Below the pieces are notes generated by a model. The model saw only the letters and a program-made list of their open reading frames with translations. It made no database searches and was not told where the DNA came from. Below, in pieces: positions 11,123 to 59,431 of a stretch of 64,000 nucleotides of DNA. Source of the stretch: a virus; the IMG/VR virus record IMGVR_UViG_3300032246_001892, positions 1 through 64,000 of that record; one strand, written 5' to 3'. Each line of letters starts with the position of its first letter. Within the stretch, counting starts at the first letter, position 1. The position numbers were made by a program, and so were the translations under genes.

Positions 11123-11194
11123 GCCTGATGAGACAGCAAGAGAAGTCCACGGTCTGCAAAACCGTTATGTTCGGAGCGTTACCGAAATCAGGCT
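11123..11194 (+). tRNA. Non-canonical tRNA-Cys(GCA)
   Basis: Perfect acceptor GCCTGAT/ATCAGGC, anticodon stem ACGGT/ACCGT with loop CTGCAAA (GCA), perfect T-stem TTCGG/CCGAA. The T-loop is AGCGTTA instead of TTCRANY, and the D-arm (GAC...GTC, loop AGCAAGAGAA) lacks the GG that normally docks with the T-loop. Discriminator T as in Cys tRNAs; CCA not complete in DNA. The only other tRNA here with this T-loop pattern is Val at 16629. It lies just before a GIY-YIG gene. Confidence 0.7.
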
Positions 11195-11225
11195 CATTTT
11201 TTATGATTTTTAGACCCTTGCTTAG

Positions 11226-11238
11226 TAAGTATATGTAT
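11226..11238 (+). promoter_or_regulatory. Late-type promoter element
   Basis: TAAGTA (11226-11231), seven bases, ATG 11239. Confidence 0.5.
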
Positions 11239-11853
11239 ATGAATAATTTTTACTATCTATACAAAATAACCAATTTAATTAATAAAAAATATTATATAGG
11301 TGTCCATAGTACTAATAATTTAGATGATGGGTATATGGGATCTGGAAAATTGATATTAAAAGCTATAAAAAAATATGGAAACAAAAATTTTAAAAAAGAA
11401 ATATTAGAGTGGTTTAATACAGAAGAAGAAATGTACAAAAAAGAAATTGAAATTGTTAATGAAGAATTCGTAAATGATAAAACAAACTACAATGTCAAGC
11501 TTGGCGGGCCAGCTAATTTTTATTATATAAATAAAAACAAATTAAACCATAAAAAAAATCAACACTTAATACATGCTAACAAATTAAAATCTGATCCAGA
11601 ATATAGAAAAAGATTTGTTGAAAAAATGAAAAATGCCTTATCAAAGGAAAAGCGATTAGAGTATAGCAAAAGGATGAAAGAGAATAATTGTAATAGAAAT
11701 AGATTTTGGATATCAAACGATTTTTATAAAAAATCTAAAATGGTAACACAAGAACAGTTTGATGTTCTGTTAAATCAAAATTGGTATAAGGGTGTAAAAT
11801 ATAGAAAGAATAGATCGGTTCAAATCCAGTCCGGCGCTCCATATATGGGGTAA
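11239..11853 (+). CDS. GIY-YIG homing-type endonuclease
   Basis: 204 residues from ATG 11239. The GIY-YIG core is at the N-terminus: FYYLYKITNLINKKYYIGVH, then an AIKKYGNKNFKKEILEWF helix typical of the domain. A basic DNA-binding region follows. The frame stays open upstream to 11065 through tRNA genes, which I reject as fortuitous. The last codons (about NRSVQIQSGAPYMG) read through an orphan tRNA 3' half, suggesting the gene inserted at a tRNA. Mobile endonucleases of this type are frequent in T4-like phages. Confidence 0.85.
   Translation: MNNFYYLYKITNLINKKYYIGVHSTNNLDDGYMGSGKLILKAIKKYGNKNFKKEILEWFNTEEEMYKKEIEIVNEEFVNDKTNYNVKLGGPANFYYINKNKLNHKKNQHLIHANKLKSDPEYRKRFVEKMKNALSKEKRLEYSKRMKENNCNRNRFWISNDFYKKSKMVTQEQFDVLLNQNWYKGVKYRKNRSVQIQSGAPYMG
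11813..11841 (+). pseudogene. Orphan tRNA 3' half with CCA
   Basis: T-loop TTCAAAT (11819-11825) flanked by a weak T-stem, acceptor strand CCGGCGC (11831-11837), T discriminator and CCA. The required 5' strand GCGCCGG is not found nearby. It overlaps the 3' end of the GIY-YIG coding region. Confidence 0.55.
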
Positions 11854-11861
11854 GTATTAAT
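11851..11861 (+). promoter_or_regulatory. Late-type promoter element
   Basis: TAAGTA (11851-11856), five bases, ATG 11862. Confidence 0.55.
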
Positions 11862-12215
11862 ATGTTTACAAGAATTAAAGACGCTCTTCAAGGCAAAGCT
11901 CCTATAACAGCTTCACGTTCCCCTAAATGGGCTGGTGTGAGAGAAAGTCATTTAAAACAACATCCTACTTGTGCAGTATGTGAAGGAAACGAAAATCTTA
12001 ATGTTCATCATATTAAACCCTTTCACTTACATCCAGAATTAGAATTAGAACCCACTAATCTTGTAACTCTTTGTGAATGTGAAAAACATGGTGTAAATTG
12101 CCATTTGCTTATAGGTCATATAGGTAATTTTCACAATATTAATCCTCATGTATTAGAAGATATTCCAATTTGGAACGAGAGATTAAAAGAAAAAAACGAT
12201 AACCCAGACGTATAG
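11862..12215 (+). CDS. HNH endonuclease
   Basis: 117 residues. SPKWAGVRESHLKQHPTCAV then CEGNENLNVHHIKPFH, LEPTNLVTLCE and CHLLIGHIGNF: a compact HNH nuclease with paired Cys ligands. This short version is widespread in phages, sometimes with a packaging or DNA-processing role rather than homing, so a mobile nature is not certain. It lies between tRNA genes and has its own late-type element. Confidence 0.82.
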   Translation: MFTRIKDALQGKAPITASRSPKWAGVRESHLKQHPTCAVCEGNENLNVHHIKPFHLHPELELEPTNLVTLCECEKHGVNCHLLIGHIGNFHNINPHVLEDIPIWNERLKEKNDNPDV

Positions 12216-12255
12216 TCATTGCTTTATCAGCTAAAACGTATTAATATAAATAATA

Positions 12256-12329
12256 CGTGATGTAGCCCAATGGTTAAGGCGCCTGGTTTGGGACCAGGAG
12301 ATTTGAGAGTTCGAGTCTCTCCATCACGA
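12256..12329 (+). tRNA. tRNA-Pro(UGG)
   Basis: Acceptor CGTGATG/CATCACG, anticodon stem CCTGG/CCAGG with loop TTTGGGA (TGG), T-loop TTCGAGT, discriminator A; CCA not encoded. A perfect TATAAATA box (12245-12252) lies just upstream. Confidence 0.92.
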
Positions 12330-12339
12330 TAAAGTTCAT

Positions 12340-12415
12340 TCCTCGGTAGCTCAATTGGTAGAGCATGCGACTGTTAATCGCAGGGTTGCTGGATCGTACC
12401 CAGCCCGGGGAGCCA
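12340..12415 (+). tRNA. tRNA-Asn(GUU), CCA encoded
   Basis: Acceptor TCCTCGG/CCGGGGA (one T-G), anticodon arm TGCGA-CTGTTAA-TCGCA, T-arm GCTGG-ATCGTAC-CCAGC, discriminator G, CCA. The T-loop carries A54 and T58 in place of the usual T54 and A58. Confidence 0.9.
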
Positions 12416-12441
12416 CTTTTAAAAACAATAATTTAATCTAT

Positions 12442-12476
12442 TTGATTTAACTATCTAAATCCCTTATAATAAAAAC
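12442..12476 (+). promoter_or_regulatory. Early-type promoter of purA
   Basis: TTGATT (12442-12447), 17-bp spacer, TATAAT (12465-12470), six bases (AAAAAC) to ATG 12477. No Shine-Dalgarno site fits in the interval. Confidence 0.75.
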
Positions 12477-13472
12477 ATGATTGAATATGTAGACATCATC
12501 GTGGGTCTTGCTTGGGGTGATGAAGGTAAAGGTAAAATCTCAAGTGCTCTTGCAGAGAACTATGATATGGTATGTCGTTGGAACGGAGGTCCTAATGCAG
12601 GGCATACTGTTTACATAGATAATAAAAAATACAAGACGCATCTTATCCCATCTGGAGTGTTTCATGGTAAGCCTTCTATCATCGGTCCTAATTGTGTAAT
12701 AAATCTTGAAAAATTTAATGAAGAATTAATTTATCTTGATGATAATGGATTTGATGCAAGTTTAGTAAAAGTGCATCCCAACGCTCACATTATTACAGAA
12801 GATCATATTCAATATGATTTAAATTATCTTAAACCTAAATTAGGAACTACTGGACAGGGTATAGCTCCTTGTTATGCAGATAAAGCAAATAGAGTTGGTA
12901 TTCAAGCATGGACTCAATTAGATAAAAAATATATATGGGACATGAAGTTGAAAGGTAAGATTCTTTGTGAAGGAGCGCAAAGCATTTGGCTTGATATTAA
13001 TTGGGGAGATTATCCTTATGTAACAAGCAGTGAGACATTTCCTCATAATGCATGCTCTCTTGGATTCTCGCCAAAGAAGATTCGAGACATTATAGGTGTA
13101 GCAAAAATTTACGATACTAAAAGTGGTGTAGATCCTTTATTCCCCGAGACTCTCTGGGATGATCCAATTCTTAATAAGATCATAGAGATTGGCAATGAAA
13201 AGGGAACCACCACCGGAAGAAAGCGAATTGTTAATTGGTTGAATGTATCAAAACTTATTAATGCAATTAATCTTTCAGGTGTTAATAAATTAATCATTAA
13301 CAAATGTGATGTATTAGATCAAGTAGGAGAGTTTAAATTATATCATAAAAATGGATTTATGACTTTTGAACATTTACATGCTTTGCAAGTATGGTTAGAA
13401 ATTTTTATCATAGAAGCTACAGAAATCAAAAGAAAAGATATTGTATTTTCTGGAGACGTGACTAAGATATGA
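12477..13472 (+). CDS. purA: Adenylosuccinate synthetase (short viral/archaeal form)
   Basis: 331 residues, about 100 shorter than bacterial PurA. It keeps WGDEGKGK with catalytic Asp15, GGPNAGHT, LIPSG, GTTGQGI, EGAQSIWLD, YPYVTSSET and the guanine-binding NKCDVLD. The Asp-binding loop reads GTTTGRKR. The family joins IMP and aspartate with GTP to give adenylosuccinate. PurZ, which acts on dGMP for 2-aminoadenine DNA, is described as replacing the catalytic Asp; Asp is present here, so PurA chemistry is more likely. It has its own leaderless-type promoter and sits between tRNA genes. Confidence 0.85.
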   Translation: MIEYVDIIVGLAWGDEGKGKISSALAENYDMVCRWNGGPNAGHTVYIDNKKYKTHLIPSGVFHGKPSIIGPNCVINLEKFNEELIYLDDNGFDASLVKVHPNAHIITEDHIQYDLNYLKPKLGTTGQGIAPCYADKANRVGIQAWTQLDKKYIWDMKLKGKILCEGAQSIWLDINWGDYPYVTSSETFPHNACSLGFSPKKIRDIIGVAKIYDTKSGVDPLFPETLWDDPILNKIIEIGNEKGTTTGRKRIVNWLNVSKLINAINLSGVNKLIINKCDVLDQVGEFKLYHKNGFMTFEHLHALQVWLEIFIIEATEIKRKDIVFSGDVTKI

Positions 13473-13478
13473 AAGCAA

Positions 13479-13551
13479 TACGGAGTAGCTCAATTGGTAG
13501 AGCAGCAGAATTTGGATCTGCTGGTTCTAGGTTCGATTCCTAGCTCCGTAG
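13479..13551 (+). tRNA. tRNA-Gln(UUG)
   Basis: Acceptor TACGGAG/CTCCGTA beginning with the T-A pair typical of Gln, anticodon arm GCAGA-ATTTGGA-TCTGC (TTG), T-loop TTCGATT, discriminator G; CCA not encoded. It starts six bases after the purA stop. Confidence 0.92.
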
Positions 13552-13559
13552 CTTTTTTA

Positions 13560-13594
13560 TTGATATTCCTGATTAATTAATTTAATATATACAC
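13560..13594 (+). promoter_or_regulatory. Early-type promoter
   Basis: TTGATA (13560-13565), 17-bp spacer, TAATAT (13583-13588), six bases to ATG 13595. Confidence 0.7.
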
Positions 13595-13951
13595 ATGAAT
13601 GAAGAACAAAAAGTGATTGTTATTACTATGATGGAATCGTATACCACTTACGAAAATCATGGCACACTTAAGATTGATTTAGAAAATTGGGTAGAACTTG
13701 ATGGCAAGGATAAAAATGAAATTGCAGAATGGTTAAATAATAATTCTGATAATCTTTTTGTTGATACAACTACCGGTGAGATTAAAAGAGATCAATTTTA
13801 TAAATATGATCAAGAAGAATTGGATGATATGTTAGTAAACGGAGAAGAAAAAGAAGTTGATGAAGATATTATTCCTTTATATGAATATCGGCAGAACACA
13901 GAAGTAATCTCAGATAGAATTAAAAACGAACAGAAATATCTTTATATTTAA
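13595..13951 (+). CDS. Acidic hypothetical protein (118 aa)
   Basis: Strongly acidic (many Asp/Glu, for example GEEKEVDEDIIP). Begins MNEEQKVIVITMMESYTT, predicted alpha/beta. No family recognised. It has its own early-type promoter and lies between tRNA-Gln and tRNA-Tyr. Confidence 0.65.
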   Translation: MNEEQKVIVITMMESYTTYENHGTLKIDLENWVELDGKDKNEIAEWLNNNSDNLFVDTTTGEIKRDQFYKYDQEELDDMLVNGEEKEVDEDIIPLYEYRQNTEVISDRIKNEQKYLYI

Positions 13952-13958
13952 AATAAAT

Positions 13959-14041
13959 GGGTCGGTACCGAAGTGGCCAAACGGGGAGCTCTGTAAAAGC
14001 TTTGTCATTCGACTTCGAAGGTTCGAATCCTTCCCGGCCCA
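13959..14041 (+). tRNA. tRNA-Tyr(GUA)
   Basis: Acceptor GGGTCGG/CCGGCCC (one T-G), anticodon arm GAGCT-CTGTAAA-AGCTT (GTA), long variable arm as in bacterial Tyr tRNAs, T-arm GAAGG-TTCGAAT-CCTTC, discriminator A; CCA not encoded. Confidence 0.92.
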
Positions 14042-14082
14042 CATTAAATAATATTATTTACAAAAAAAATGTAAATCCATGG

Positions 14083-14093
14083 TAAGTAATTAC
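14083..14093 (+). promoter_or_regulatory. Late-type promoter element
   Basis: TAAGTA (14083-14088), five bases, ATG 14094. It decides between two in-frame starts. Confidence 0.5.
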
Positions 14094-14474
14094 ATGGAAA
14101 AAACATGCACTCAATGTAAACAAACAAAATCAATAGACTCCTTTACGAAAAAGAAGAGTAAAATAGGAAAATATTATAGTTGGTGTAAAGTATGTTTGAG
14201 CATATACAATCGTAAGAAGTTTAAAAACAGAAAACAAGAAATATTAGATATATTAAAAATTAAAGAATGTGTTAGATGTGGATATAAAAAGTATTTAGGG
14301 GCTTTAGAATTTCACCATGAAAAGGGGGATAAAAAATTTAATTTATCTAAAAATCAATCAATAGAACGAAGTATAGAAGAAGCAAAAAAATGTATAGTTT
14401 TATGCTCTAATTGTCACAAAGAAGAACATTATTTTTTACATAATAAAAAACGCCCACCATTTTATGAAAATTAA
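14094..14474 (+). CDS. HNH homing-type endonuclease with zinc finger
   Basis: 126 residues from ATG 14094 (another ATG lies at 14079). N-terminal finger CTQCKQTKSIDSF...YSWCKVC, then CVRCGYKKYLGALEFHHEK and IVLCSNCHKEEH, the HNH metal core with Cys pairs. It follows tRNA-Tyr directly, matching the tRNA association of the other mobile endonuclease genes here. Its end overlaps the next gene by 11 bp. Confidence 0.82.
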   Translation: MEKTCTQCKQTKSIDSFTKKKSKIGKYYSWCKVCLSIYNRKKFKNRKQEILDILKIKECVRCGYKKYLGALEFHHEKGDKKFNLSKNQSIERSIEEAKKCIVLCSNCHKEEHYFLHNKKRPPFYEN

Positions 14475-15141
14475 AACAGATCTCACAAAAATATGTGACG
14501 GAATTTATCTATGTGAAATGGATAATAGATATGATCTTGCAATGACTTTTTGTAGAGTACAAGAATTTTATGAGTCTGCTTTTAAAGAAATAAGAGGTAA
14601 AAGTTTTTCTATGATGAAATTCCAAAGATTATATTCTTTGAAACGGGAAGGTTGTTTTTCATATCCACTAGATTGGGCAGGATTCAATATCCCAAGTAGT
14701 ATATTGGAAAAGTTTTATAAGGGAGATTGGATGTCTAATGACTGGAATGAATATGATGGTGTCTTTAAAAAAATTGTGAATCAAATAGGCGAAGATAAAC
14801 CATTTTATTTAATTGCTTCAGAAAAGAATCAAAAACAAACCGTAGATCATGAGTTATGCCATGCTTTTTATAATTTAAATAAGGATTATAAAAGTAGTGT
14901 TGATAAAATGATTAATAGTATTCCCAAGACTCTTCTCAATAAAATGAAGAAGGTTCTTAAAGATACCGGCTACTGTGATAGAGTGATGAAAGACGAGATA
15001 CAGGCATACCTTTCCTGTGACCATAATTATTTTTCACACCAAGGACGTTTGTCTGATATAGATGATAAAAGAATAGAAAAATTTGAAAAGTTATTTCAAA
15101 ACCATTTTAACAAACACATATCCCTAAATATAACAAAATGA
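14464..15141 (+). CDS. HExxH protein, putative metallopeptidase-like
   Basis: 225 residues. The segment TVDHELCHAFYNLNKDYK contains HELCH (HExxH) followed by a helical region and a conserved-looking KDEIQAYLSCD. HExxH plus a downstream Glu is the minimal zincin pattern, but I cannot place it in a named family. I recall similar uncharacterised proteins in T4-like phages next to the HAD-domain gene, as here. It overlaps the next gene by 4 bp, suggesting coupling. Confidence 0.65.
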   Translation: MKIKTDLTKICDGIYLCEMDNRYDLAMTFCRVQEFYESAFKEIRGKSFSMMKFQRLYSLKREGCFSYPLDWAGFNIPSSILEKFYKGDWMSNDWNEYDGVFKKIVNQIGEDKPFYLIASEKNQKQTVDHELCHAFYNLNKDYKSSVDKMINSIPKTLLNKMKKVLKDTGYCDRVMKDEIQAYLSCDHNYFSHQGRLSDIDDKRIEKFEKLFQNHFNKHISLNITK

Positions 15142-16301
15142 ATTTTAAAGATTTCTACAATAATGAAGAGGGGTATATGGTTCTCCTTAAAGACATACCG
15201 GTAAGCGAGGCTCTTTCTTATCACTTAAAACATAAATTAACTTTATGTGAAAACCACTTTAGAATATATTCTAAAGCATATTTTGATTTAATTGCTGAAG
15301 CAAGAGATCTTTATAATAGGAATCTTTTATCTTTAAATGATGAAGATGCAGAAATGGTAGAGTCAAATCTAGGAGAAAAGGCATTATATGAAGGAAGAGA
15401 AGTGTTTTTAGAGGCTCCTCTTACATTCAATGAAGATGTAATAACGGAAGCGATCGCGGTTATTCCTCATAATTCAATTCATACCAAAATCTTTGTTGAT
15501 ATGGATGGCGTGCTTTGTGATCTATATAATGTAGTGGCTTCAGAATTGAACATCCCTCTTGAAGAATTGACTCCTGGGGATTATGCTGGATTTTTCAAAT
15601 CTCATGCTGATGATGCAGATGATGTTTTTGCTAATTTGCCAAAATACGAATCAGCAGATTTCTTAATTAAAATAGTCAATGATTTAGCAGGAGAATATCG
15701 TATTTGCTCCGCTCAACTTAAAAATCACGATTCGACAAAAGTGATATCTGGAAAGAATCAATGGCTTGATAATAATTTAGAGGATCAGCCAGTTGAGAGA
15801 ATTTTTACCAGGGAAAAATATAAACATGCTACTACAGACGGCAAACCTAATATTTTAATTGATGATTGGAAAGAAAATATCAATGATTGGAATGATGCCG
15901 GCGGAATAGGAATTCTTTATTCAGCTGAGAGAGATGGTCTAGATACTTTAATAGAGAAATTATTAGAAGCTAAAGAACTTCTTGACAATAGATATAAAGG
16001 TGTGGTCATGACTGAAGCCAAAGTACATGGTAAAAATGTAAAGCTTAATAAACCCTTTAGAACTCCAGGAGGTCCTAAGAAGTTTGCAGTTTATGTAAAA
16101 ACTCCTAAAGGCACAGTTAAGAAAGTTACATTCGGAGATCCTAATATGAGAGTTCGTAATGCTAGTAAAGCAAGAGCGAAGTCTTTTAGAGCAAGACATA
16201 AATGTTCTCAGAAAAAGGATAGAACGACTGCTGGGTATTGGAGCTGTAATGTATCAAGATATAGAAAAGCATTAGGGTTAAAATCAACAAGAGCCTGGTA
16301 A
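15138..16301 (+). CDS. HAD-family phosphatase fused to basic C-terminal domain
   Basis: 387 residues. An N-terminal region of about 115 residues precedes the HAD motif IFVDMDGVLCD (118-128), with a later acidic motif NILIDDWKENI (about 235-245). This is the layout of 5'-nucleotidase-like HAD enzymes. From about residue 290 a separate basic domain follows, with KKVTFGDPNMRVR, KSFRARHKCSQKKDRTTAGY and WSCNVSRY. The RARH...YWSC pattern recurs in uncharacterised virion-associated phage proteins. The fusion could link nucleotide trimming to a DNA- or virion-binding module. Overlaps with both neighbours support one operon. Confidence 0.75.
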   Translation: MNFKDFYNNEEGYMVLLKDIPVSEALSYHLKHKLTLCENHFRIYSKAYFDLIAEARDLYNRNLLSLNDEDAEMVESNLGEKALYEGREVFLEAPLTFNEDVITEAIAVIPHNSIHTKIFVDMDGVLCDLYNVVASELNIPLEELTPGDYAGFFKSHADDADDVFANLPKYESADFLIKIVNDLAGEYRICSAQLKNHDSTKVISGKNQWLDNNLEDQPVERIFTREKYKHATTDGKPNILIDDWKENINDWNDAGGIGILYSAERDGLDTLIEKLLEAKELLDNRYKGVVMTEAKVHGKNVKLNKPFRTPGGPKKFAVYVKTPKGTVKKVTFGDPNMRVRNASKARAKSFRARHKCSQKKDRTTAGYWSCNVSRYRKALGLKSTRAW

Positions 16302-16564
16302 TGAGTCAACCTTATCAAGAAGAAATAATTTCTAGTAAAGAAGTTATTAGGAATTTCTCAGAAACTTTAGACGAGGAAGATCTGAAGTGGCACTTTGACA
16401 ACGAAGATAGAGTCGTTGAAGTTTTAGAACCAACGGACTGGCTTATTCAATTTGATAATCTATTGCCCGAATCTATAGAAGGTACATTATATATCCCAGC
16501 AGGAGTTTATCATAGAGTTATAAAAGGAACAAAAGATTTTAAAATAAAAATTAAAAAATCTTGA
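16301..16564 (+). CDS. Small cupin-like protein (87 aa)
   Basis: 87 residues. The acidic N-terminal half is followed by YIPAGVYHRVIKGTKDFKIK, reminiscent of the PxGxxHxV strand of cupin folds. Metal ligands are incomplete (one His). It starts at the stop of the HAD gene (TAATG). Function unknown. Confidence 0.6.
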   Translation: MSQPYQEEIISSKEVIRNFSETLDEEDLKWHFDNEDRVVEVLEPTDWLIQFDNLLPESIEGTLYIPAGVYHRVIKGTKDFKIKIKKS

Positions 16565-16600
16565 TCTTTCTGCAAAGGCGTGTTAATATAATCATGTCAA

Positions 16601-16620
16601 GCACGAGTAGCTTAGCGGTA
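16601..16620 (+). pseudogene. Orphan tRNA 5' fragment
   Basis: GCACGAG-TA-GCTTAGCGGTA looks like a tRNA 5' acceptor strand, T8-A9 and the first half of a D-arm, after which the sequence breaks. The acceptor strand pairs fully with CTCGTGT at 17572-17578, the 3' end of a tRNA-like gene about 970 bp downstream. Confidence 0.45.
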
Positions 16621-16628
16621 TAAAATAT

Positions 16629-16702
16629 GGGGATTTAGTTAAAAAGTATAACGCCTGATTTACACTCAGGAGTCGTTGGAGCATTACCATCAGTCCCTAC
16701 CA
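16629..16702 (+). tRNA. Non-canonical tRNA-Val(UAC), CCA encoded
   Basis: Acceptor GGGGATT/AGTCCCT (7 pairs, two G-T), T8-A9, D-stem GTTA/TAAC, anticodon arm CCTGA-TTTACAC-TCAGG (TAC), T-stem GTTGG/CCATC (4 of 5), discriminator A, CCA. The T-loop is AGCATTA and the D-loop AAAAGTA lacks GG, the same departures as in tRNA-Cys at 11123. The 3' end of a minus-strand endonuclease gene overlaps it. Confidence 0.65.
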
Positions 16703-17413
16703 CTTTAATAATAGATTCTTTTATTAAATGTTTTTTCCCTAGAATAATAATTTTAACATTATTTTGTTCTGCTGTTCTTTTAATTTTATCTATATCAGTT
16801 TTAATTAAGAAATCATTTTTTGGATCAAGATATACATTATACATAGGTAGATAAAAATCTGGGTAATATCTTCTTTGTTGGTTTTTATTATCTTTGTACC
16901 AAAAAAAGAAGGTCTGATCCATAATATTTTTAAATTATTCAATATATTTGAAAGAGTAACTTCATATGAACTTTCTGCCACAAAAATTTCACCCTTTATG
17001 TTTGAAATTTTGCTTCTGTGTGTATGCTTTTGACCGCCACATTTAGGATTTATAGTTGATGTTATTTTATTCCAATTTACAAGACAATCTTTGCAGCAAG
17101 TTTTTAAATAAGGAGACCCTGTGTCTTTTTGACAAAAATTACATAGAAGATTCGGTTTATCGCACGTGGGTGTTATACCTCTTTTTCTTAAAGATTCTAT
17201 ACATTTTTGTTTGGTTTTTTCTGATTGTTTATATCCTAAAAGTTTTTCTTTTACCTTTTTCTTAAATTCTTCAGTTCTTGCGCCTCTACTATTAGAACAA
17301 GATCTAGAACAAAATCTTAAAGGAGTATTAATAGCTTTTTTGTCTTTTCTCCATTCATGTTTTATTTTTTTACAACATTTTAAACAAATATTTGAACCTG
17401 TAAAAGTTTTCAT
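16635..17413 (-). pseudogene. Endonuclease with internal frameshift (zinc-finger plus PD-(D/E)XK/Vsr-like)
   Basis: Two overlapping minus-strand frames make one protein. The first (17413 down to about 16905) has Cys fingers (CLKCCKK, CNFCQKD), a NUMOD-like basic helix and SSYEVTLSNILNNLKILW. The second continues with FFWYKDNKNQQRRYYPDFYL, YLDPKNDF and IIILGKKHL, as in Vsr-like homing nucleases (E...PDFYL...E/D-x-K). The join falls at an A7 run on the plus strand (16901-16907); one base more would restore the frame. It may be a decayed gene, a sequencing error or a slippage site. The tail reads into tRNA-Val. Confidence 0.65.
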
Positions 17414-17507
17414 AACAAAATTTTAAATACTTACGTGATAAGGGTTCGAATATAAGTAAATTATATAAATGTTAGATATATATATACAAATTTGTATTTA
17501 AATGAAT

Positions 17508-17582
17508 GGGGGTGTAGTGCTAATGGTAACACGCAGCCTTAGCAAGGCCGAGTTAAGGGTTCGAATCCCTCCTCGTGTACCA
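17508..17582 (+). tRNA. tRNA-like gene, anticodon read as AGC (Ala), broken acceptor
   Basis: D-arm GTG...CAC with GG, anticodon arm CAGCC-TTAGCAA-GGCCG (one A-C mismatch) giving AGC, T-arm AAGGG-TTCGAAT-CCCTC, discriminator A, CCA. The acceptor strands GGGGGTG and CTCGTGT do not pair (three mismatches), while CTCGTGT pairs with the orphan 5' fragment at 16601. It is probably a chimeric or inactive tRNA. Confidence 0.5.
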
Positions 17583-52465: not shown

Positions 52466-53311
52466 TTACCTCAGGTCTCTACCTGCGTTGATTACACTGA
52501 CTGCAATAGAGGAATGGATACTCTCGAAGTGATTAACAATTACGAGGTAATCATTAATACGACCATCAAGATCAGTATCTAACTCTACTGCAACCTTACG
52601 GACCATATCTTCGACGAAGACTGGATTCTCATACATAAGCTCTGTCTGATAAGCCTCATCAACACGCTTAAGGGCGTTAACGATAGGTGCTGAGCAACTA
52701 CGCTCAACTGCACCAATAAGCTCCTCAAACCAATATACATCCTTACCGTCAACACCTGTGTGGTTGAGTTCAACGGTAACGTCTGCATAAGACTGCTGAT
52801 TATGAGCTCCATAATCACTGATCTCCTTAGAGCAGGGGCAGAGGGAAGCGTAAAGAACATTAGCGTGGAGATAGAACTTCTTCTCTCCGTTAATGAGTCT
52901 ACCCTCAAATGAACCTTGATAATCCATATGAGACTTGACCTTAGAGACTGGTGCCTCCTTGATCATGAAGTAATCAAACTTGATCTTAATGTAAGCGTTC
53001 TGAGACTTCAGACGATTCTTACACTCATCAAGGAGAAGATCCATAACCTGATCAATACGATGGGTCTTGTTAGCAAGAACCTCTTCAACCAGGATACGAT
53101 AGCGACTCATGTTTGTACCCTTAACCTCTGGAGTGAGATCGGTATACATACTAATGATTGCTTTAGTAGGGTTAATGGTTCCATCTTGTCTAATAATTTC
53201 CATAGGAACTACGATATTCCTAGAACCAACTTTAGGAATATACTTCTTAGGGAAACCATCCAGCGTATTTTGAATGTCTGGAATGTCGTCGTTTGTTTTT
53301 ACTCTTGGCAT
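52466..53311 (-). CDS. folE2: GTP cyclohydrolase IB (FolE2)
   Basis: 281 residues from the ATG giving MPRVKTNDDIPDIQN. SLCPCSKEISDYGAHNQQSY is the FolE2 signature with the metal-binding Cys; VPMEIIRQDG and EVLANKTHRIDQVMDLLLDE agree. The family turns GTP into dihydroneopterin triphosphate, first step for folate and for 7-deazaguanines. G+C content (roughly 35-47% in sampled lines) exceeds that of neighbours, like virion genes, suggesting strong expression. Starts in an AAC/AAA-rich leader similar to that of the gp32-like gene upstream. Confidence 0.9.
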   Translation of the reverse strand: MPRVKTNDDIPDIQNTLDGFPKKYIPKVGSRNIVVPMEIIRQDGTINPTKAIISMYTDLTPEVKGTNMSRYRILVEEVLANKTHRIDQVMDLLLDECKNRLKSQNAYIKIKFDYFMIKEAPVSKVKSHMDYQGSFEGRLINGEKKFYLHANVLYASLCPCSKEISDYGAHNQQSYADVTVELNHTGVDGKDVYWFEELIGAVERSCSAPIVNALKRVDEAYQTELMYENPVFVEDMVRKVAVELDTDLDGRINDYLVIVNHFESIHSSIAVSVINAGRDLR

Positions 53312-53339
53312 ATATTTGTTTGTTTGTTGTTTAATTGAA

Positions 53340-54206
53340 TTAAAGATCCTTGAGAATATCTTGGATACGGTCATTTTGATCTGAAAGAACATCGTTATTA
53401 TCATCTACAACTGTAGAAGATGCAACCGACTTTGTTGTAGTAGGAACAATATATTCCTCTTCAACTTCTAATACAGAAGCTACAGAAGCTGCTGGTGCTT
53501 CTTCCTCACCAAGGAAGTGAACCTTAAGCATCTTGTTAATGTCTTCTGTAGTCTTATGCTCAAAGATAGAATCAAGAGGCTTGAAAGACTTATAAATCTC
53601 TTCAAGATCCGTTGCACCTTCAAGAGGAGAAGCAGAAATGAACTTGGAAGAAACATATGTAGGATATCCACCCTCATTTGCCTCTACCTTGATACGGAGA
53701 TTACAACCCTTCTCTGAGAGATCAAAGATCCTAGATCCGAATTCATCTGCATCATCACCGCTAATAGCATCTGTAATGACTTTATTAAGCTGCTTACCAA
53801 AACGAAGAATCTTGGTCTGACCCTGATTGTCAGGGTTAGTTGGATCCTTAATAACGTAAACATTGGCTAACCAATTTTCATTACGCTTGATTGGAGCAAT
53901 GCGCTTAATCTCACCCTCATTATTGGTACGATAAATCTTGGAGCGATACTCATCAATAGGGCAACGTTCGCCATATGTCGTAGGACACAAGACTGAAACA
54001 AGTTGATTAGTGACAACACTCTTCCAGAGATGATGGAAGTAGTGAAAGAGCGTACGCTCTGGTGCTTCAATGTTAGGAATCAGGCGTACCAAATAGGTAT
54101 TACCAATCTCCAGTTTCATAAAGTCTCTGAATCCGCTCTCTGCGGTAGAAGACTTCTTATTAAGAGCCTCTTTAATAGACTCGAATAGGTTGTTGTTGTA
54201 TTTCAT
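53340..54206 (-). CDS. Single-stranded DNA-binding protein (gp32-like)
   Basis: 288 residues. FHYFHHLWKSVVTNQLVSVL followed by CPTTYGERCPIDEYR is the zinc-containing core of gp32-type SSBs. The acidic C-terminus (VDDNNDVLSDQNDRIQDILK) would contact replication partners. The leader is A/C-rich and unstructured (ACAAACAACATATG before the ATG), a context in which T4 gp32 represses its own translation; similar control here is inference. Confidence 0.88.
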   Translation of the reverse strand: MKYNNNLFESIKEALNKKSSTAESGFRDFMKLEIGNTYLVRLIPNIEAPERTLFHYFHHLWKSVVTNQLVSVLCPTTYGERCPIDEYRSKIYRTNNEGEIKRIAPIKRNENWLANVYVIKDPTNPDNQGQTKILRFGKQLNKVITDAISGDDADEFGSRIFDLSEKGCNLRIKVEANEGGYPTYVSSKFISASPLEGATDLEEIYKSFKPLDSIFEHKTTEDINKMLKVHFLGEEEAPAASVASVLEVEEEYIVPTTTKSVASSTVVDDNNDVLSDQNDRIQDILKDL

Positions 54207-57735: not shown

Positions 57736-58236
57736 TTATACTCCTTGTCTTTTGGGCTGAGATGGACTTCCGTAACTAACAGAATGAACTGATACTGGTT
57801 TAGATTTTTCAAAAAGAGCAGAATTATTTTCATGTTCAAAAACTTCTACTTTCTCCACCCAACATCTATCACCCGTTGTCGTTCTAATATAATCATTCAT
57901 CTGATTGAAGCACCATTCTGCGGTTTTTTCAATACCAACAGACTCCATGATTCTGAGTTGGCATCCTCTTTGATTGTTAAGTTCTTGCCAAAATGGAAGT
58001 AAAGGATCGTCCTGTGCCACACAAAGAGTGTGATCAAATTGATCATTTAGAATTTTTTTAATTTCTTTAAGACCTCCAAAATCAACCACCCAATTCTTTT
58101 CATCTAAGGTATTGGCACCAAACCAGAACTTTGCTCTGAGTTGGTAACCATGAATAAATTGACAATGGCTATGGACTGCCCTCCATTGACGGAAGGCACA
58201 AGATCCTAATTCTATAATTTTGGTAGATGTATACAT
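57736..58236 (-). CDS. queD: QueD/6-pyruvoyltetrahydropterin synthase-like
   Basis: 166 residues from ATG at 58236 with GGAGG nine bases upstream. HSHCQFIHGYQL corresponds to the catalytic Cys and HGH zinc motif, VVDFGGLKEIKK to the DFxxLK strand, FDHTLC to the LDHxxLN motif, and GIEKTAEWCF to the PTAE motif. The second His of HGH is Tyr and the first zinc His is not obvious, so metal binding may differ. The family makes 6-carboxytetrahydropterin from the FolE product. It overlaps no gene but is coupled to uvsX. Confidence 0.78.
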   Translation of the reverse strand: MYTSTKIIELGSCAFRQWRAVHSHCQFIHGYQLRAKFWFGANTLDEKNWVVDFGGLKEIKKILNDQFDHTLCVAQDDPLLPFWQELNNQRGCQLRIMESVGIEKTAEWCFNQMNDYIRTTTGDRCWVEKVEVFEHENNSALFEKSKPVSVHSVSYGSPSQPKRQGV

Positions 58237-58237
58237 T

Positions 58238-59431
58238 TTATTCTTCCTCCGTTTCAGAATATAAAACATTATCAACTGGTGTTAATGTCTCTGAGATTGT
58301 GTCTTCAGAGTCTGTATCTTCAACAGTCAAAGAATCATTATTAAAACAAAGCTTTGTTCGTAATTTCTCTTCTAATGCTGGTAGAATTTTATCCCAAACT
58401 TTAACATCGGTTTTCCAATCTTTAAAGAATCCTAACATTTCTCCATTGAACGTATGACGATGACCTTGTTTTTCTACAACACCGTAACCTTCACACATCT
58501 CGAGTAATCCTGAATATCTATTGAGACCGGTCCTAAAGTTTAGATACATCTCTGTCTCTAAATAAGGTGGCACAAATCGATTCTTAGTTGTAAAGGCTCT
58601 AAGGGTCAAACCATTAATGTCTTTGGATAAAGGAGTAACATCTGTATTGGAATCTTTATTCTTACTATCACTTGATCTTTCAGCTTTCTTAGCCATCTGA
58701 ACAATAACGGATGCCATATAAAGAGGTCCGGATCCACCAGCCTGCTTCTTAATTGCTGAAGGATGCATCTGCGATGGATCTTCGTATATATGATTAGTAA
58801 ATACTACTGGGCAATTAGCTTTGGCTGCTGAATGAGTAATTGCTCTCATCATACTCTTAAGAGCTTTTGCCCTATTACCCATATCTGGAGTATCACTTCC
58901 TTCATCTATCTTCTTCTTTTCTTGTGTAGTAATAAGATTACCAAGAGAATCAATAACGATAAGAACCTTGCCGTGTAATTTCTTCTCAACAACGTTTTCT
59001 AAAAACTTGACGATTTGATTTCTACATCCTTCGGTAATTTCTGTAGGTATGTGTTTAATCTTAGAAGGATCACATCCAAGTCTTGATGCAGTACTTTCAT
59101 CCAAAGCTCCCTCTGTATCAAAATATGCAATATGCATACCTTTCTTTTGTGCATTGGCCATGACCTTATTGCACATAAGAGTCTTACCACAAGATTCTGG
59201 TCCAATGAATCCCGTAAGTCTACCCATAGGGATTCCTCCATATATAGAACCTGAGATAATAGCATTAAGAGCCATTGAACCGGTATCAATCCATTCCTTA
59301 ACTGTAGATAAACTATTCTTATCTAAATAAGATGCCTCAGGATTAAGATCCTCTAAAACCTTAAAAGCATCTTCAATGCTTCCACTACTTGTTTCTTCTA
59401 CGTCTGCTTCGTTTTTCTTTTTGTATGCCAT
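58238..59431 (-). CDS. uvsX: UvsX/RecA-like recombinase
   Basis: 397 residues from the ATG giving MAYKKKNEADVEE. Walker A FIGPESCGKT (75-84), a VLIVIDSLGNLI Walker B, and FTNHIYEDPSQMHPS, ALKSMMRAITHSAAK loop regions match UvsX. An acidic tail (DTDSEDTISETL) ends the protein. A frame open to 59521 runs back through a terminator and is rejected. It catalyses strand exchange for recombination-dependent replication. Confidence 0.9.
   Translation of the reverse strand: MAYKKKNEADVEETSSGSIEDAFKVLEDLNPEASYLDKNSLSTVKEWIDTGSMALNAIISGSIYGGIPMGRLTGFIGPESCGKTLMCNKVMANAQKKGMHIAYFDTEGALDESTASRLGCDPSKIKHIPTEITEGCRNQIVKFLENVVEKKLHGKVLIVIDSLGNLITTQEKKKIDEGSDTPDMGNRAKALKSMMRAITHSAAKANCPVVFTNHIYEDPSQMHPSAIKKQAGGSGPLYMASVIVQMAKKAERSSDSKNKDSNTDVTPLSKDINGLTLRAFTTKNRFVPPYLETEMYLNFRTGLNRYSGLLEMCEGYGVVEKQGHRHTFNGEMLGFFKDWKTDVKVWDKILPALEEKLRTKLCFNNDSLTVEDTDSEDTISETLTPVDNVLYSETEEE

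Follow-up and report, generated by a model that had tools for sequence, protein, structure and literature searches.

Phage tRNA-Cys and tRNA-Val genes with an apparently rewired elbow belong to a large class of phage and mobile tRNAs

We describe two tRNA genes, a tRNA-Cys(GCA) and a tRNA-Val(UAC), in which the bases that join the D-loop to the T-loop at the elbow of the molecule appear to have been exchanged for others that fit each other. Both lie in a 64-kb stretch of DNA (hereafter the window; positions 1 to 64,000 of the 91-kb virus record IMGVR_UViG_3300032246_001892), which comes from a T4-like phage. Phage and mobile tRNAs with the same swaps number in the hundreds, and an elbow contact thought to be universal can apparently be rewired. 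We consider it probable that the two tRNAs of the window, like the class to which they belong, are working elongators whose elbow is held by different, mutually fitting contacts. Standard teaching treats positions 18, 19, 54, 55, 56, and 58 as near-invariant, and for this reason their pairing is hardly visible by comparison. The canonical T-loop bases have been called hallmarks of all tRNAs (PMC7912444). The features concerned, all on the forward strand, are as follows.

11123–11194: tRNA-Cys(GCA) with a putatively rewired elbow; discriminator U73, no encoded CCA, with TCAT at that place (class model R1, 47.8 bits, E 1.4e-12)
11175–11181: T-loop AGCGTTA of tRNA-Cys, read as A54 G55 C56 G57 U58 U59 A60
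11138–11140: D-loop AAG of tRNA-Cys, with A18 at 11139 and G19 at 11140 (numbering inferred from the sequence and from the AG/G55 covariation)
16629–16702: tRNA-Val(UAC) with a putatively rewired elbow; discriminator A73, encoded CCA (Rfam RF00005, 49.6 bits; R1, 73.7 bits, E 1e-20)
16680–16686: T-loop AGCATTA of tRNA-Val
16642–16648: D-loop AAAAGTA of tRNA-Val, with A18 at 16645 and G19 at 16646; the commonest D-loop in the AGCRTTA class
12340–12415: tRNA-Asn(GUU), with T-loop ATCGTAC (12393–12399) and a D-loop GG; a half-way form, swapped at 54-58 and canonical at 18-55

The tRNA-Cys reads GCCTGAT GAGACAGCAAGAGAAGTCC ACGGT CTGCAAA ACCGT TATG TTCGG AGCGTTA CCGAA ATCAGGC T, and the tRNA-Val reads GGGGATT TAGTTAAAAAGTATAACG CCTGA TTTACAC TCAGG AGTC GTTGG AGCATTA CCATC AGTCCCT ACCA. 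The coordinates, anticodons, T-loops, and GG-less D-loops reported for both genes in a first-pass annotation were all confirmed, as was the CCA encoded on tRNA-Val. The two T-loops have the common reading A54 G55 C56 R57 U58 U59 A60, and both D-loops contain AAG in place of GG. Instead of U54-A58, the tRNA-Cys, tRNA-Val, and tRNA-Asn of the window have A54/U58, and instead of G18-U55, tRNA-Cys and tRNA-Val have A18/G55; G19 and C56 are both retained in these two sequences and may still be in contact. The first-pass annotation held that the normal elbow was abolished, with its D-loop and T-loop sides lost together. The first of these claims does not hold, because G19 and C56 remain and only 18-55 and 54-58 are altered. 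The second is right in that the changes on the two sides are linked by covariation, but with 18-55 and 54-58 changed on both sides the elbow is swapped rather than lost. In the arrangement we propose, A54 would pair with U58, A18 with G55, and G19 with C56. The tRNA-Asn, previously treated as a small exception among standard elbows, does carry a real change, but one that belongs to the same system of swaps (A54/U58, with G18-U55 kept); its ATCGTAC T-loop also occurs in the relative L357.

Otherwise the tRNAs of this class share with the canonical elongator tRNA (RF00005) an acceptor of 7 bp, anticodon and T arms of 5 bp each, a T-loop of 7 nt, U33, a discriminator that follows the isotype, and G19 and C56, and differ from it, besides the swaps at 54-58 and 18-55, in having A60 for Y60 and an AAAAGYA D-loop without GG. 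ARAGORN, which lists eight ordinary tRNAs in the window, missed both genes: some phage tRNAs escape standard tRNA finders. The Rfam tRNA model, whose use under relaxed settings had been suggested earlier, detected tRNA-Val above its gathering score and left tRNA-Cys unmatched even at a relaxed E-value. With R1, a covariance model of the new class run with filters off, tRNA-Val ranks first and tRNA-Cys second, while the canonical tRNAs of the window score at most 37 bits. The earlier statement that both genes fold well is correct insofar as comparison supports the cloverleaf, but tRNA-Val has a U50-U64 mismatch in its T-stem and a minimum-energy fold that is not a cloverleaf, so that the support for its fold is comparative. 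A sigma-70 scan upstream of tRNA-Val yielded no site above chance.

A search of phage contigs for the AGCRTTA T-loop with paired stems, also suggested by the first-pass annotation, recovered a large class. A tRNA-Cys pattern with an AGCGTTA-type T-loop matched eight viral contigs, and 8/8 of the matches fold as tRNA-Cys without GG; with no tRNA folds in shuffled sequence, a chance match of the T-loop heptamer was ruled out. Two general class patterns gave at least 120 matches each in viral contigs, and structural parsing of the collected loci produced 253 well-folded members with 30 anticodons. When 84,980 genomes of bacteria and archaea were scanned, 84 contigs matched, mostly from Verrucomicrobiota and some from alphaproteobacteria, candidate-phylum members, and Firmicutes. 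The AGCRTTA type covers most isotypes; it occurs in metagenomic phages, in accessory arrays of Verrucomicrobiota, and in a cultured phage, Pseudomonas phage 16Q, which has a tRNA-Ile with T-loop AGCGTTA and D-loop AAAAGTA, plus a tRNA-Pro with AGCGTAA. Only 4/145 sampled Verrucomicrobiota genomes have a strong match (stricter filters may lose some), which marks the arrays of this phylum as accessory and rules out a lineage trait of one host phylum.

The evidence for the swapped contacts comes from a scan for tRNA folds in which T-loop and D-loop were left free. It gave 2639 tRNA folds in 2.68 Mb of real loci vs. 0 in 1.04 Mb of shuffled sequence, and the final set, after further loci were added, comprised 3353 distinct tRNAs, with a numberable D-loop in 2098. 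Among the latter, U55C56 is accompanied by D-loop GG in 1410 cases and by anything else in 9, and G55C56 by AG (or AG/GA) in 535, by GG in 53, and by other bases in 7. U55U56 occurs with G18A19 (GA or AG/GA) in 35/38 cases and with GG in 3. Here tRNAs offering both AG and GA were counted with the expected type, and a Fisher test was applied to the counts of 55-56 against D-loop type. In small sets judged by eye, the D-loop often offers U19 where base 56 is A (AATTGTATA) and C19 where it is G (AATTACAA). At 54-58 the combinations are UA (1845), AU (384), GG (144), CA (55), AA (40), and CC (12), base 60 being nearly always A with AU or GG. Half-way types also exist, namely TGCRANY, which has G55 with A18 and retains U54-A58, and ATCRTNN, which has A54/U58 and retains G18-U55, and to which the tRNA-Asn of the window belongs. 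A tRNA-Phe with T-loop ATCGTTA is present in LPS-5, a phage that infects P. aeruginosa PAO1.

In nearly all isotypes that have enough numbered cases, the split between 55-56 and D-loop types recurs. It also holds when the viral loci are taken by themselves (UC with GG in 1361/1369, GC with AG in 260/285), most of which were picked by T-loop and CCA end without use of the D-loop; loci from bacterial and archaeal genomes were picked with A18 G19 in the pattern, which makes the D-loop evidence circular for their AGCRTTA members. An antiparallel Y20-G55 pair as a general rule was ruled out, as the base following AG varies freely. The compensatory changes in related phages, whose absence the first-pass annotation would have taken as a refutation, are present, and the covariation points to a contact between D-loop and T-loop made by the swapped bases. 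For all three elbow contacts the class offers natural covariation, with several Watson-Crick types in the case of 19-56, and it reveals which elbow solutions evolution accepts. Alternative 54-58 pairs were reportedly obtained in selected mutants in the combinatorial suppressor-tRNA work of the Steinberg group. In the open-access literature, including a 2020 review of noncanonical tRNAs that covers tRNA-Sec, allo-tRNA, tRNA-Pyl, and mitochondrial tRNAs (PMC7609411), we found neither natural elbow covariation nor this phage class; preprints and subscription papers were outside the search.

The T-stem mismatch of tRNA-Val, and the fact that ARAGORN missed both genes, might suggest decaying pseudogenes, a possibility that the first-pass annotation had raised and to which we give almost no weight. 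In an alignment of 95 AGCRTTA members, 97.3% of the cells are paired and covariation reaches 1.11 vs. 0.23 in shuffled alignments; this strong covariation in the stems, together with conserved identity elements and near-perfect tertiary covariation in the class, argues against decay. The discriminator fits the isotype in 686/803 G55 tRNAs vs. 1547/1733 canonical ones, and the G55 tRNAs have U73 in Cys (36/36), A73 in Ile (78/78), G73 in Asp (49/49), and G3-U70 in Ala (28/28), like canonical tRNAs. Encoded CCA is equally frequent in G55 and canonical tRNAs, and U33 is conserved in both. With stems that covary, and discriminators and Ala G3-U70 that fit the isotype, the class looks like working elongator tRNAs, which the host would charge and use. 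Phage T5 tRNA-Ile1 has the G18 A19/U56 form, and its GenBank entry states that an anticodon-changed form suppresses amber codons, which bears on the 19-56 swap only and not on the AGCRTTA type.

Other tRNAs that depart from the canonical elbow differ from the present class in several ways. The staphylococcal peptidoglycan tRNA-Gly is confined to Gly, and its T-stem changes avoid EF-Tu, whereas the present class has full T-stems and covers nearly all isotypes, and the window pair (Cys and Val) lacks the Gly anticodon. Common to both is the replacement of elbow bases, and dedicated non-translational tRNAs with elbow changes are known (PMC9976931). A similar non-translational or decoy role for the present class is nonetheless improbable, given nearly all isotypes, correct discriminators, a CCA rate equal to that of canonical tRNAs, and the takeover of slots that canonical tRNAs fill elsewhere. 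tRNA-Pyl likewise lacks G18 G19 and TPsiC (PMC7609411), but it has a long (6-bp) anticodon stem, a short D-loop, and a CUA anticodon, and it forms one lineage with no set of covarying solutions; the window pair has 5-bp anticodon stems with GCA and UAC. In Type II mitochondrial tRNAs, GG and TPsiC are also not conserved (PMC7609411), but these lose the D/T contact, which the present class apparently replaces base for base. The spare-tRNA clusters of phages and mobile elements (T5, jumbo phages, the Anabaena trn operon) are similar in being clusters with homing endonucleases; the papers on the spare-tRNA idea (PMC7824862, PMC10272220) describe no rewired elbow.

As for why such swaps arise, elbow-reading enzymes rely on positions 18, 54, 55, and 58, the ones changed here, and U54, U55, G18, and A58 are modified by TrmA, TruB, TrmH, and TrmI (positions from PMC7912444). 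Judged by their sequence, the swapped tRNAs would be unable to carry the conserved modifications m5U54, Psi55, Gm18, and m1A58, and the purpose of these modifications and of elbow recognition becomes testable with them. Toxins, nucleases, and decay factors that recognise the canonical T-loop may also see them poorly, so that they could act as spares while the tRNA pool is attacked; the tRNase CdiA-CT E479, for example, cleaves the T-Psi step within the T-loop (PMC9086364). The advantage that we tentatively prefer, at clearly less than even odds, is escape from elbow-reading enzymes. The fuller proposal, in which the tRNAs of phages and mobile arrays include a second set with an orthogonal elbow, favoured by selection because it evades host enzymes, toxins, or nucleases that recognise the canonical T- and D-loops, and still charged by the host and used on its ribosome, is somewhat more doubtful. 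For anticodon nucleases in particular, the canonical anticodon stem-loop of the window tRNAs speaks against escape.

Several points weigh against the rewired elbow and these proposals. We know of no T-loop tRNase that acts on the present tRNAs, 53 of the G55 tRNAs have GG in the D-loop, and the sequences are kin, with some counted repeatedly, so the counts are not independent events. Furthermore, in 79 viral contigs picked for one canonical tRNA only, 332/376 of the other tRNAs are canonical (88%), which indicates that escape is not a strong general pressure in phages.

Neutral compensatory drift would give the same structure from another cause. Phage and mobile tRNAs are briefly used or spare, so intermediates would be tolerated, and the elbow could wander among equivalent solutions without advantage. 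We regard drift as about as likely as escape from elbow readers, plausible if short of an even chance, and nothing in the sequences decisively favours either of them, or the DNA-level escape discussed below, over the others. Drift is consistent with the coexistence of many solutions (six at 54-58, four types at 19-56), the half-way forms TGCRA and ATCRT, the changes of type between relatives in syntenic slots, and the 44/376 tRNAs (12%) with a changed T-loop key position in the 79 viral contigs mentioned above. It is less easily reconciled with the AGCRTTA type, in which at least four bases change together, or with the Verrucomicrobiota arrays, in which nearly every isotype has left U55, a pattern that looks directional. 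The alternative tRNAs of these bacteria occur in single-locus arrays of ~13 to 23 tRNAs with up to 22 noncanonical-elbow anticodons, and 361 G55 and 64 AGCRTTA tRNAs stand against 29 canonical ones (7.4% canonical when the AGCRTTA type, the search seed, is excluded). At sites outside the array in the Chthoniobacter flavus genome, the tRNAs read are all canonical (32/32). Among three arrays (L337, L339, and L344), two are near TROVE/Ro60-like genes and one is near RtcB and a kinase-like gene; genes of the TROVE and RtcB types belong to RNA repair (PMC7790460, PMC7824862), and their presence fits a spare-tRNA role under tRNA damage. ADP-ribosylglycohydrolase genes also occur near these arrays.

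Homing endonucleases and integrases target the T-arm and D-arm, which show the highest conservation in tRNA genes. Rewired RNA contacts could let a gene change the DNA so targeted and keep its function. The surroundings of the two window genes bear on this DNA-level escape.

11230–11853, forward strand: GIY-YIG (Seg-like) homing endonuclease beside tRNA-Cys (PF01541, E 6e-4; PHROG 314, E 1.6e-41)
16601–16623, forward strand: 5' remnant of a canonical tRNA-Val, GCACGAGTAGCTTAGCGGTATAA, 18/20 identical to the first 20 nt of the tRNA-Val of L355 and L357
16635–17413, reverse strand: two overlapping ORFs in different frames (16635–16922 and 16805–17413), whose 3' end overlaps the swapped tRNA-Val on the opposite strand
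17557–17582, forward strand: 3' remnant of a canonical tRNA-Val, GGGTTCGAATCCCTCCTCGTGTACCA, 26 nt identical to the tRNA-Val of L355 and fused to a degenerate 5' part

Relatives were found through their adenylosuccinate synthetase gene. In the syntenic tRNA-Cys slot, TTC types occur in L355 and L357, TGCAAAT types in L353 and L364, and AGCGTTA in the window. L355 and L357 also have a canonical tRNA-Val (GCACGAG...CTCGTGTACCA), and the stretch upstream of the remnant at 16601 is similar to that upstream of their gene. Between the two canonical pieces (16601–17582) lie the swapped tRNA-Val, immediately after the 5' remnant, and the antisense ORF pair, which is probably one frameshifted mobile gene. 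On the simplest reading, a mobile segment with the swapped tRNA-Val and the now frameshifted gene broke the canonical tRNA-Val and replaced its product, so that the swapped gene would have taken its place in the window. The mobile tRNA lineage suggested by the first-pass annotation fits tRNA-Val in this respect. Its statement that both genes adjoin endonucleases stands for tRNA-Cys; the ORF pair beside tRNA-Val had no endonuclease match in family searches, although its motif PDFYLP..YLDPK hints at such a nature. DNA-level escape would agree with mobile genes next to both tRNA genes and with a canonical tRNA-Val broken exactly where the swapped one replaces it, but homing endonucleases are abundant in phage tRNA clusters anyway, and the 30 scanned proteins flanking the examined arrays gave no endonuclease match. 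We consider it unlikely.

Some members of the class have further peculiarities. Many alphaproteobacterial assemblies (L252, L270, L279, L293, and others) carry a nearly identical tRNA-Val(GAC) with an AGCGTTA T-loop that has no other tRNA at its locus; a plasmid search with one such Val(GAC) member gave no match. CAU tRNAs with an AGCRTTA T-loop in L033, L038, L105, L120, L247, and L255 have a minimal D-arm of four pairs and an AAGN loop, directly 3' of the acceptor stem. tRNA-Tyr-like AGCRTTA genes without a D hairpin occur in L247, L248, L250, L257, L263, L274, L275, L289, L292, L298, L314, L320, L321, and L333, and in viral L070 and L087 (alignment A3). In these, the 5' D strand pairs with one in the variable region, followed by AAG, and a GTC/GAC variable stem crosses this pairing to form a pseudoknot, with covariation of 0.547 vs. 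0.176 in shuffled alignments and changes on both sides in 5/6 D pairs.

The tRNA cluster of the window also contains a short adenylosuccinate synthetase (12477–13472, 331 aa), which PurA models match better than PurZ, both under their curated cut-offs. Elsewhere in the window, a FolE2-like GTP cyclohydrolase (52466–53404) and a QueD-like protein (57736–58275) suggest a partial 7-deazaguanine pathway.

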